In this document: piece after piece, positions 15,758-57,136 of the stretch
Layout of the letters: every line of letters begins with the position of its first letter
How positions within the stretch are numbered: position 1 is the first letter of the stretch
From: Stappia indica
GTDB lineage: Bacteria > Pseudomonadota > Alphaproteobacteria > Rhizobiales > Stappiaceae
DNA length: 64,000 bases
Assembly: GCF_020177335.1 (NCBI RefSeq)
Contig: NZ_JAIVMG010000003.1
Span: 248,001 to 312,000 of the forward strand
Direction of reading: 5' to 3'
The notes under the pieces: model-generated
Seen by the model: the letters and a program-made list of their open reading frames with translations, nothing else
What the model was told of the DNA's origin: nothing
Databases searched by the model: none
Made by a program: the position numbers and the translations under genes

Positions 15758-16873
15758 TCAGAACAGGGCCAATTGCACGCCGCCGCTGCGCGGCGGAGAG
15801 AACAGGTCGGTGCGCAATGGCTGCCGGCGCCGGTTGAGACCGAGCCGCTTGCTGACAAGGGCAAAGCGCTTGGCCAGTTGCTCCGCATAGGGGCCTTCGC
15901 CGCGCATCCGCTTGTTCCATTGGGCGTCGTAATCCTTGCCGCCGCGCATGGATCGGATCAGGTTCATCACATGACGATAGCTGTCCGGTCGGTGACGCAA
16001 CAGCCAGTCGCGAAACAGCGGACTGACCTCGATCGGCAACCGCAGCAGGATGTAGCCCGCCGCGCTCGCGCCCGCCTCCTGGCCCGCCTCCAGAATGCGT
16101 TCCATCTCCGAATCGGTCAGGGCCGGGATCACCGGCGCCACCATCACGGCGGTGGGAATGCCCGCCTCGCTGAGGCCCCGCAGCGCATCGAGGCGGCGGG
16201 AGGGGGTTGCGGCGCGCGGCTCCAGCGTGCGCGCCAGCTTGCGGTCGAGGGTGGTGACCGACAGGGCCACCTTGACCAGCCCGCGTTCGGCCATGGGCGC
16301 AAGCAGGTCGAGATCCCTCAAAATCAGCGCCGACTTGGTGACGATGCCCACAGGATGATTGCAGCGCGACAGCACCTCCAGAATGCCGCGCATCACCTGG
16401 TGCTGCCGCTCAATCGGCTGATAGGGGTCGGTGTTGGTGCCGATGGCGATGGAGCGCGGTTGGTAACCGGTCTTGCCAAGCTCCCGTTCCAGAAGCTCCG
16501 GCGCGTTCGGCTTGACCGTCAGACGGGTCTCGAAATCGAGTCCCGGCGACAGACCGACATAGGCATGGCTCGGGCGGGCAAAGCAATAGACGCAGCCATG
16601 CTCACAGCCGCGATAGGGATTGACCGAGCGGTCGAAGGAAATATCCGGCGAGGCGTTGCGGGTGATGATGCTGCGCGCCCGCTCCTCATGCACTTCGGTC
16701 TTCAGGTCGGGCAGCGTGTCGAGCGTGCCCCAGCCGTCATCGAAGGCGTCCTGGCTCTCGCGCTCGAAACGGCCGGCCATGTTGAGACCGGCACCCCGTC
16801 CCTTGCCGCGCGGGCTGTCACCGGGCGGGGGAGGGGGCGACTGATTCGGGGACTGGATATCGGCGATGGGCAT
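15758..16873 (-). CDS. PA0069 family radical SAM protein (SplB/COG1533-like)
   Basis: The 371-residue protein has the radical SAM cluster motif C-x3-C-x2-C in YRGCEHGCVYC around residue 90, after a conserved RSIITRNASPDISFDRSVNPY. It belongs to the PA0069 branch of the family that contains spore photoproduct lyase; its reaction is unknown. Two features point to DNA repair. The extreme C terminus is VQLALF, which matches the beta-clamp-binding pentapeptide pattern QLxLF. A LexA-type box lies 36-50 bases before the start codon. The N-terminal 30 residues are Pro/Gly-rich. The gene precedes rnhB, with a 110-base gap. Confidence 0.88.
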   Translation of the reverse strand: MPIADIQSPNQSPPPPPGDSPRGKGRGAGLNMAGRFERESQDAFDDGWGTLDTLPDLKTEVHEERARSIITRNASPDISFDRSVNPYRGCEHGCVYCFARPSHAYVGLSPGLDFETRLTVKPNAPELLERELGKTGYQPRSIAIGTNTDPYQPIERQHQVMRGILEVLSRCNHPVGIVTKSALILRDLDLLAPMAERGLVKVALSVTTLDRKLARTLEPRAATPSRRLDALRGLSEAGIPTAVMVAPVIPALTDSEMERILEAGQEAGASAAGYILLRLPIEVSPLFRDWLLRHRPDSYRHVMNLIRSMRGGKDYDAQWNKRMRGEGPYAEQLAKRFALVSKRLGLNRRRQPLRTDLFSPPRSGGVQLALF

Positions 16874-54745: not shown

Positions 54746-55168
54746 TCAGCGATTGTAGCGGGTGGTGACCGTGCGCACGAGCGCGCTGCCTTCCTCGATA
54801 TAGCGGGCGAGGGCCACTTCGGCAGCCGGTGTGCAGCGGCGATAGACGGAGGAAAAGCCGCGATAGCCCTGGTTGAACCGCTCGATGAACCGCCGCTCGC
54901 GGTTCGCGTCCCGGGTTTCCGCATCGAGCAGGGCGCGCATCTGGTCGCGCCACAGGGGGCCGTCGGTGGCGCCGCAGAGCGGACGCAGATAGTGCAGGGC
55001 GCCGAGGATCTCCGAAAGACGCATCAGGTCCGCTTCATAGGGTGGGTCTTCCGCCGCCGGTTGGGCGCTGACCGATGGGGCAAGAACGAGCGGCGCAAGC
55101 ACGAGCGCGGCGGCCAGGGACGCGGTGAGAAAACGCAAGGGCGCGAAGGGGCGAAGCGTGCGCAGCAT
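54746..55168 (-). CDS. TIGR02301 family exported protein
   Basis: The 140-residue protein has a signal peptide (FLTASLAAALVLAPLVLAPSVSAQ) and the compact helical domain of TIGR02301, known only from Hyphomicrobiales: LSEILGALHYLRPLCG, FIERFNQGYRGFSSVYRRCTPAA, and a final RYIEEGSALVR. Two Cys (LCG, RRC) may form a disulfide. Function unknown. It follows the Nudix gene on the same strand (92 bases), an order typical of the clade. Confidence 0.85.
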   Translation of the reverse strand: MLRTLRPFAPLRFLTASLAAALVLAPLVLAPSVSAQPAAEDPPYEADLMRLSEILGALHYLRPLCGATDGPLWRDQMRALLDAETRDANRERRFIERFNQGYRGFSSVYRRCTPAAEVALARYIEEGSALVRTVTTRYNR

Positions 55169-55260
55169 GGGGCGAAGATGCGTCGGTTGGCGCGGCAAGG
55201 CAAGGGGTGGTGCGGCTTGTGCCCGGATGATGTGGCGGTCGCCGCGACCGCCGTCGCCGA

Positions 55261-55689
55261 TCAGCGGGGCATCAGCCGCCGGATGCGTGCGGCGGTGCCC
55301 GGCGTCATCGGCAGTGCGTCGAGGGCATCGAAGCTGACCCAGCGGGCATCAAGGGCATCGTCGCCGGCCTGAAGCTGGCCGGCCGGATGCCGCGCGCGAA
55401 ACACGGCAATCACGAAATGAACGCCCGCAAGCGTGGACCCCGCCTCGTCCTGCACGGGCGGCGGCAGGAGTTCGACCAGATCGGCGGGAGCGGTCTCCAG
55501 GGTCGCGGAAAGCCCGGTTTCCTCGCGCAGCTCGCGCAAGGCGGCGTCGGCGAGCGATTCGCCGAAATCGACACTGCCGCCGGGCAGGCTCCAGTGGCCT
55601 TGATAGGGCGGCTTGCCGCGCTGGACGAGCACGACCCGGTTCTGGTCATGGCACAGCACGCTGACGCCAAGCTGGGGGCGAAGGATCAT
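55261..55689 (-). CDS. Nudix hydrolase
   Basis: The 142-residue protein has a complete Nudix box G-x5-E-x7-R-E-x2-E-E-x-G (GSVDFGESLADAALRELREETGLS) and the sequence HWSLPGG in front. It hydrolyses a nucleoside diphosphate linked to some moiety; the size and LVQRGKPPYQGHWSLPGG segment are like ADP-ribose or MutT-type enzymes, but the substrate cannot be settled. ATG 55689 is chosen. The TIGR02301 gene follows. Confidence 0.9.
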   Translation of the reverse strand: MILRPQLGVSVLCHDQNRVVLVQRGKPPYQGHWSLPGGSVDFGESLADAALRELREETGLSATLETAPADLVELLPPPVQDEAGSTLAGVHFVIAVFRARHPAGQLQAGDDALDARWVSFDALDALPMTPGTAARIRRLMPR

Positions 55690-55729
55690 GGCACCCGACA
55701 AATCATGCCGCGCGCTCCGGGGCAAGCGA

Positions 55730-56236
55730 TCAGGCGAACAGGGCGTCGATCGCGTCCTGCGCTTCCGTATCCTCGGTGCCATCGGGGATTGCCTCGCCGT
55801 GAATGATGGCACTGGCGCTGGCGATCAGCGGCCGCACCTCTTCCACGGTCTCATGCGCCACCTGCTCGGCGATCAGGCGCACGTCCTCCGCCGATCGCAA
55901 CCGACCCTGCTTCTCGCACACGGCGGTATCGAGGGTGGCGACCACATCGCGCAAGGCGCGGCGCACCGGCACCGGCGCGGCGCGAAACGCCTCGATGGCC
56001 AGATGCTTCTCGGCGAAGTTGGAGGCCTCGAAATGCGCTTCATAGCTGAGCGGCTGCCATTCCAGCACATCCTCGGCGCATTCGGGCATGTCCGGCAGCA
56101 TTTCCAGGAGCATCACCACTTCGTTGAAGTGGTTGAGGTAGTCGGTAGCAAGGCCGGTGCGGGGGTTGATATTGGCGGCAGTGAGACGCTCCGCCGTCAA
56201 CTTGCCTTCTCCCAATGTGGAACACGCCTGATCCAT
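55730..56236 (-). CDS. Conserved hypothetical helical protein
   Basis: The 168-residue product is acidic and helical without signal peptide (ATDYLNHFNEVVMLLEMLPDMPECAEDVLEWQPLSY). ATG 56236 has AGAGG at proper distance; ATG 56242 and 56260 are alternatives. No domain is recognised. It is 40 bases upstream of the Nudix gene and probably in one transcript with it and the TIGR02301 gene. Confidence 0.72.
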   Translation of the reverse strand: MDQACSTLGEGKLTAERLTAANINPRTGLATDYLNHFNEVVMLLEMLPDMPECAEDVLEWQPLSYEAHFEASNFAEKHLAIEAFRAAPVPVRRALRDVVATLDTAVCEKQGRLRSAEDVRLIAEQVAHETVEEVRPLIASASAIIHGEAIPDGTEDTEAQDAIDALFA

Positions 56237-56362
56237 TGCCATGCCTCTTGGAATTTCCATCCCTGTCAGTTTAGCTGAGGTACGGTTTCGAATTGGCTAA
56301 CCGGATGTCAGAACGGGGAAATCCGTCGCGGCAACCTGTGGTGTGGCTGCGGAGTGGGTGCA

Positions 56363-57136
56363 ATGTGTGGACGCTATAGCCTGACGGCAACACCGGAAGA
56401 GGTGCGGGCATTCTTTGAGTTTGTCGAGCAGCCGTGGTTCCCGCCGCGCTACAACATCGCACCGACCCAGCCGATTGCCACCGTGCGCTTCGCCCATGGG
56501 GCACGGCATTTCGCGCTGGTGCGCTGGGGGCTGGTTCCCGGCTGGGTCAAGGATCCGGCCAGTTTCTCGCTGCTTCTGAACGCCCGGGCGGAAACGGCGG
56601 CGGAAAAGCCGTCCTTTCGGGCGGCCATGCGCCATCGCCGCTGCCTGATCCCGGCCAGCGGCTTCTACGAATGGTACCGGCCGGATGCAGGGCCGAAACA
56701 GCCCTACTGGATCCGTCCGAAGGCGGGCGGGCTGGTCGCCTTCGCAGGGCTCTACGAGGACTGGTGCGACCCGGATGGCGGCGAGATCGAGACCGGCGCG
56801 ATCCTGACGGTTTCCTCAAACGCATCCATTGCGCCGATCCACCACCGGATGCCGGCGGTGATTGCCCGGGAGGATTTCGCCACCTGGCTCGATGTGGGCG
56901 GGGTCTCTGTGCGCGAGGCGCAGGCGCTGTTGAGGCCGGCACCGGAGAGCCTGTTCGAGGCGGTGCCGGTCGCCACCCGGATCAACAGTGCCCGCGATGA
57001 CGATCCGGGACTGCAAGCGGCGGCCGATCCGGTGGTGGCACCGCCGGAGGAAAAGCCGCGCGAGGCGGGCGCGAAAAAAGGCAAGGGCGCGGCCAGGTCT
57101 CCCGCCGCGCCCTCGTCGCAACTCGATCTGTTCTGA
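56363..57136 (+). CDS. SRAP protein (YedK/HMCES type) with C-terminal clamp-binding motif
   Basis: SRAP proteins crosslink their Cys2 to abasic sites in single-stranded DNA and shield them. MCGRYSL is at the start, so ATG 56363 must be the true start. The other active-site residues are visible: N73 in LLNARAET, E103 in ASGFYEWYR, and H160 in IHHRMPAV, in positions like those of E. coli YedK. The last five residues are QLDLF, matching the bacterial beta-clamp-binding consensus, after a flexible Lys/Ala-rich tail. 257 residues, longer than YedK (222) because of that tail. It converges with glyS. Confidence 0.93.
   Translation: MCGRYSLTATPEEVRAFFEFVEQPWFPPRYNIAPTQPIATVRFAHGARHFALVRWGLVPGWVKDPASFSLLLNARAETAAEKPSFRAAMRHRRCLIPASGFYEWYRPDAGPKQPYWIRPKAGGLVAFAGLYEDWCDPDGGEIETGAILTVSSNASIAPIHHRMPAVIAREDFATWLDVGGVSVREAQALLRPAPESLFEAVPVATRINSARDDDPGLQAAADPVVAPPEEKPREAGAKKGKGAARSPAAPSSQLDLF

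Follow-up and report, generated by a model that had tools for sequence, protein, structure and literature searches.

The window, the whole 64,000-nucleotide stretch of the Stappia indica genome analysed here, encodes on its plus strand a protein of the SRAP (HMCES/YedK) type, with the following features:

56363 to 57136, plus strand: SRAP (HMCES/YedK-type) protein, 257 residues, ATG start and TGA stop, identified from the ORF and its match to Pfam PF02586 (E = 2.3e-69).
56363 to 56989, plus strand: SRAP domain, residues 1–209, from the Pfam stretch, the invariant residues and fold matches to HMCES and YedK.
56366 to 56368, 56579 to 56581, 56669 to 56671 and 56840 to 56842, plus strand: Cys2, Asn73, Glu103 and His160, respectively, within the SRAP domain.
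57023 to 57118, plus strand: linker, residues ~221–252, from low pLDDT and from composition and entropy in the host family.
57119 to 57133, plus strand: predicted C-terminal clamp-binding motif QLDLF, residues 253–257, from the sequence, its conservation in the family and the consensus given in the available text of PMC11139829.

ATG 56363, which yields a protein beginning MCGRYS, is the likely start rather than the mechanically assigned GTG at 56354, because SRAP proteins have Cys at residue 2. At its other end the ORF reads KKGKGAARSPAAPSSQLDLF-stop, confirming the terminal SSQLDLF of the original prediction. The motif had, however, been placed one codon late, at 57122–57136, which covers LDLF and the stop: Gln is encoded by CAA at 57119–57121, LDLF by 57122–57133, and the TGA stop occupies 57134–57136. 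The gene order TIGR02301 protein, NUDIX hydrolase, SRAP protein (54746–57136 of the window) is shared with Sinorhizobium meliloti, whose sampled SRAP protein has a QMSLF end; here, a minus-strand ORF (55730–56260) with no Pfam or NCBIfam match sits between the last two.

The PF02586 profile aligned with residues 1–209 of the 257 at 233.7 bits and over essentially the whole model (positions 1–213 of 214). Cys2, Asn73, Glu103 and His160 were invariant in a 12-row alignment and, in a second alignment, Cys2, Glu103 and His160 were again invariant and Asn73 nearly so. Solved relatives detected by sequence include human HMCES, the Bacteroides protein 2f20 and YedK. An AlphaFold2 model built on a 53-row alignment had a mean pLDDT of 91.7, with values of 91–98 for blocks of ten over the first 220 residues, and matched HMCES (5ko9, E = 1.5e-21) and YedK (6kcq_B, E = 1.8e-19) in Foldseek. 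From residue 221 onwards, pLDDT by block of ten was 82, 69, 55 and 43, and the model had no secondary structure beyond residue 218, as in clamp clients whose motif is borne on a flexible, exposed segment. Given the Pfam match, fold, invariant residues and falling pLDDT of the tail, the protein is, by its domain, catalytic residues and predicted fold, a normal SRAP protein and predicted abasic-site cross-linker, whose last ~35 residues are probably a disordered linker.

Escherichia coli YedK shares the SRAP domain, catalytic residues and fold (its chemistry is described in the available text of PMC9436759) but, as originally claimed, has no such tail: the match to 2icu_A, a chain of 229 residues, ends at 219, and the PDB chains stop 10–16 residues past the matched stretch. 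Human HMCES, according to the available text of PMC8053108, also combines an SRAP domain (fold match 5ko9) with a proposed C-terminal sliding-clamp motif. That motif, however, is of the PIP-box or APIM type and is proposed to serve PCNA, whereas the lineage-specific tail of the window protein terminates in the bacterial QLDLF, predicted to serve DnaN. Neither a PIP box (Qxx[LFIMV]xx[FY]) nor an APIM ([RK][FWY][LIVA][LIVA][KR]) was found in its last 48 residues, and the PIP-like pattern was present in just 2 of 65 SRAP tails of the host family.

For β-clamp peptides, the available text of PMC11139829 gives the consensus Q-aliphatic-x-[L/M][F/L], with positions 2 and 3 tolerating change, reports that several studies found QLDLF to be the strongest, and notes that some clients bear the motif in a C-terminal tail. 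QLDLF fits this consensus and was thus rightly called canonical. Pol II, Pol IV and Pol III α likewise have C-terminal clamp-binding peptides but are polymerases, and that text, as available, does not mention YedK and no SRAP protein was noted in it. A single DnaN gene, closely related to solved β clamps, was found in the genome.

To assess conservation, 61 host-family genomes (own included) were searched; SRAP was present in 60, some of which gave more than one, and 65 SRAP ORFs were read. Left aside, in this and the wider sets below, were matches without an assigned locus (mostly divergent, partial or paralogous, including an interrupted copy in genome G017), ORFs whose domain match ends before model position 180 (including the L148 fragments) and L179, an ORF spanning only part of the SRAP domain. 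An exact QLDLF end was found in 42 of the 65, and Q[LIVAMF]x[LM][FL] at the very end in 53; allowing up to three trailing residues the count rose to 55, compared to 0.04 expected from shuffling the last 40 residues. The other ten comprise L131, which ends in QLKLI; L135, L141 and L142, with QFDLF or QLDLF placed 6–12 residues before the C-terminus; and six short or divergent paralogues that lack both tail and motif. With these paralogues set aside, the motif was in the tail of all 59 ORFs (57 scoring above 280 and with a tail longer than 25 residues, together with L146 and with L147, included even though its ORF, which begins at model position 60, misses the first part of the domain), and in every one Gln lies four residues ahead of the final hydrophobic residue of the motif.

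Column entropy in the 52 genes with a terminal motif was 0.00–0.82 bits at the last five positions versus 1.9–3.5 bits over the preceding 25, the invariance of Gln being partly by choice since these 52 of the 57 were selected by motif pattern, but the other five (L131, L134, L135, L141 and L142) nonetheless carry the motif with its Gln. Asp occupies position 3 in 50 of these 52 terminal cases and Phe position 2 in six. The tails (30–60 residues in the 57 SRAPs) have linkers poor in hydrophobic residues (13.7%, versus 31.8% in the SRAP domain), and the 42 genes with QLDLF encode it in 27 DNA spellings. The fixed motif, diverged linkers and as many as 27 spellings together mark QLDLF as a short linear motif under amino-acid selection atop a free linker, and the alignments show selection to be by far stronger on the motif than on the linker. 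The host-family counts, entropy and spellings thus bear out the conservation under selection that marks β-clamp clients. In a single genome the evidence is of little weight: QLDLF-stop occurs at the DNA level once in 4.66 Mb, at the SRAP gene, and since the reversed control pattern also occurs once, it is conservation that constitutes the strong evidence.

We surveyed SRAP C-termini further afield, as had been proposed, using a strict (Q[LIVAMF]x[LM][FL]) and a relaxed (Qxx[LM][FL]) form of the motif, both with up to three trailing residues allowed. In Alphaproteobacteria outside the host family, 44 of 143 sampled SRAPs had the strict and 83 the relaxed form, against summed shuffle expectations of ~0.07 and ~0.26, respectively; the remaining 60 lack even the relaxed form, and hence the motif was often lost or never gained there. 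Among 85 SRAPs from Actinomycetota, Bacillota and other Pseudomonadota only three had the strict and six the relaxed form (relaxed: 2/30, 0/29 and 4/26, respectively), with the phylum labels of two sets resting on the central named loci L227 (Rubrobacter) and L225 (Tumebacillus). The 80 named loci gave a similar picture, with strict and relaxed forms in 16 and 28 of 37 alphaproteobacterial SRAPs versus 0 and 3 of the 43 others. Since the unnamed- and named-genome sets overlap (the tails of L129 and L183 are identical, as are those of L022 and L184), the two were not summed; tails identical to those of L022 and L129 occur in Pannonibacter and Pseudovibrio loci, the first of these genera being a member of Stappiaceae. 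Twenty divergent alphaproteobacterial SRAPs, read separately, had the motif in four cases.

The motif, universal in the host family, common in Alphaproteobacteria and rare outside, is therefore a feature of lineage and not a general bacterial SRAP trait. The survey thus upheld the expected conservation in relatives, but not an extension to bacteria at large, and we rejected the motif as a general property of SRAP proteins. A phage origin was also rejected, as none of 79 viral SRAPs (80 loci, one removed by filters) had the motif, nor did YoqW of SPbeta. Its absence from YedK, YoqW, the viral SRAPs surveyed and most of those surveyed from other phyla indicates that it is dispensable for the chemistry. 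Most variants remain within the known tolerance of clamp peptides (Leu or Met at position 2; Asp, Ser or Thr at 3; Phe or Leu at 5), but Phe or Gly at position 2 falls outside the aliphatic rule, and QGSLF, with Gly at that position, is the commonest variant in several alphaproteobacterial sets outside the host family. Variants with Gly or Phe there may, judging from the consensus, bind the clamp more weakly. Actinomycetota SRAPs (L272–L301) have an [LM][FL] end in 8 of 30 cases versus 0.42 expected, six of the eight without Gln; such ends may represent a clamp motif that is weaker or has degenerated.

On an unrooted FastTree phylogeny of 286 SRAP domains, drawn at random with quotas and scored for the motif anywhere in the tail, motif state changed at least 26 times, versus a mean of 96 for shuffled labels (minimum of 84 in 60 shuffles), a pattern that points to a strongly inherited state that has nonetheless been gained or lost repeatedly. 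Another kind of tail was found in haloarchaeal plasmid SRAPs: Qxx[LFIM]xx[FY] was present in 10 of 10 (shuffles expect 0.16), with ends such as QSGLGEF, QSGLDEFF, QTDFEEF and similar, some followed by a few further residues, compared to 5 of 452 tails in the other SRAP sets. This count covers L180 and nine further matches (L263–L271), with the remaining haloarchaeal matches standing outside it and L179 dropped; because the nine are 61–91% identical to L180, this case is less strong than that of the bacterial motif. The tail, Qxx[LF]xxF, resembles the PIP consensus quoted in the available text of PMC8053108. The parallel evolution of clamp tethering that had been suggested fits both the patchy distribution (the 26 changes among 286 rows) and these archaeal PIP-like tails, but an unrooted tree does not separate gain from loss.

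The clamp-tethered SRAP of the original prediction is accordingly supported at the level of sequence, and we regard as probable an ordinary SRAP with a flexible DnaN tether that would bring the abasic-site shield to forks or gaps; what we infer is that the protein binds DnaN, resides at forks or gaps and competes with translesion polymerases. The QLDLF tail would dock in the hydrophobic pocket of DnaN, and the flexible tail (30–60 residues in the family) would let the SRAP domain sample gaps or single-stranded template close to the clamp, where it would form its covalent shield by cross-linking abasic sites that stalled forks or gaps leave exposed. The occupied clamp pocket would perhaps disfavour translesion polymerases, a competition made plausible by published SRAP gene neighbourhoods that include umuDC, imuAB-dnaE2 and dinB (PMC3765255, section 6). 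SOS control is unsupported here, as no LexA-type box (GTTC-N7-GTTC and four variants, each sought) was found in 30 host-family upstream regions of 250 bases.

A DnaN-bound motif could instead act mainly by occupying the pocket, thereby blocking translesion polymerases or disturbing Hda–DnaN control of initiation, with delivery of SRAP to abasic sites not its main role. Known clamp partners do share the same pocket (PMC11139829, in its available text), and the translesion genes adjoining SRAP in other genomes (PMC3765255, section 6) would suit such a role. We nevertheless hold it to be unlikely, since the intact catalytic domain and flexible tail favour delivery, and the annotated neighbours of SRAP here (glyS, NUDIX hydrolase, TIGR02301 protein) include no translesion gene.

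Two readings without a clamp are less probable still. Hydrophobic C-terminal ends can serve as degrons, so that the conserved C-terminus might be a degradation or processing signal that clears SRAP after use, and [LM][FL] ends without Gln, as in 6 of 30 Actinomycetota and 4 of 29 Bacillota SRAPs, would fit a signal of this kind. Retention of Gln in 59/59 and of Asp at position 3 in 50/52, both matching the clamp peptide, makes this very improbable, and the motif not being always terminal (6–12 residues from the end in L135, L141 and L142) argues against a pure C-terminal signal. That the motif is a chance or inherited sequence without function is scarcely credible: QLDLF-stop is indeed expected about once per genome, as in the reversed control, but 55 of 65 observed versus 0.04 expected, the 27 DNA spellings and the diverged linkers oppose it. 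A flexible tether to DnaN thus remains our preferred reading.

A scan of the whole genome with the relaxed DNA pattern CAR-NTN-NNN-YTN-TTY-TRR revealed no excess (8 matches versus 17 in the reversed control). Only three long ORFs end in Q-hydrophobic-x-L-F, the SRAP protein and the two below, and the same kind of end is seen in a pair of short stop-to-stop ORFs, of 45 and 51 residues; in the absence of an excess, only conservation in relatives lends weight to the three.

15758 to 16873 of the window, minus strand: PA0069-family radical SAM protein with a QLALF end (NCBIfam NF033668).
202112 to 202486 of contig C5 in genome G000, outside the window, minus strand: type II Cas2 (L490) with a QIALF end (PADLOC Cas2_II), adjoining Cas1_II.

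The six homologues of the radical SAM protein that were read, from Alpha- and Gammaproteobacteria and Streptomyces, end in QLSLL, QLRLL, QLTLF, QGELF, QLRLF and QLTLL, making it a second candidate for a clamp-tethered protein. For Cas2, an end of the form Q[LIMFY]x[LMF][FL] was present in 57 of the 58 proteins read (own included) from Alpha-, Beta- and Gammaproteobacteria and Bacteroidota: 53 have the relaxed form and four more end in QLVFF, QLEFF, QLSFL and QLQFF, which leaves L523, a divergent ORF on a plasmid, as the exception. Hence, in these type II systems the sliding clamp may be a docking site for the spacer-integration complex. No report of a link between Cas2 and the sliding clamp was found in the open-access literature searched, in the text available; related Cas2 papers, in their available text, use DnaN as a replisome marker or liken Csn2 contacts to a sliding clamp.

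Nor was a bacterial clamp motif on SRAP reported in the open-access literature found, subscription papers being mostly beyond the reach of the search. In the available texts, the word 'clamp' is absent from PMC9436759, on the YedK mechanism; PMC10366529 has YedK only in a reference; PMC3765255 yielded no clamp or PCNA passage, though a word count gives one 'clamp'; in PMC8041192 the word turns up only in connection with clamp loaders and within a reference; and in PMC13303869, on AlkX, 'clamp' is a verb. The SRAP domain and the clamp motif are each known, and what is new is their combination with a clear evolutionary signal. The available text of the literature consulted is silent on how, during replication, a bacterial SRAP locates abasic sites, and recent work terms the β-clamp interactome incompletely defined (PMC13254535, in its available text).

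Altogether, we lean towards the view that an SRAP clamp tether arose independently in all three domains of life, as PIP/APIM in human HMCES, as a PIP-like Qxx[LF]xxF in the haloarchaeal proteins and as QLxLF in the alphaproteobacterial ones, that it reflects a repeatedly selected means of protecting abasic sites at forks, and that in these bacteria it belongs to a wider clamp-tethered set that includes PA0069 radical SAM proteins and type II Cas2. If the bacterial tether is borne out, clamp tethering of the abasic-site shield would have a longer history, or have come about more often, than one would gather from the human case; SRAP proteins would add a class of clients to the β-clamp interactome; and soil bacteria amenable to genetics would offer a direct recruitment mechanism that is simple to test.
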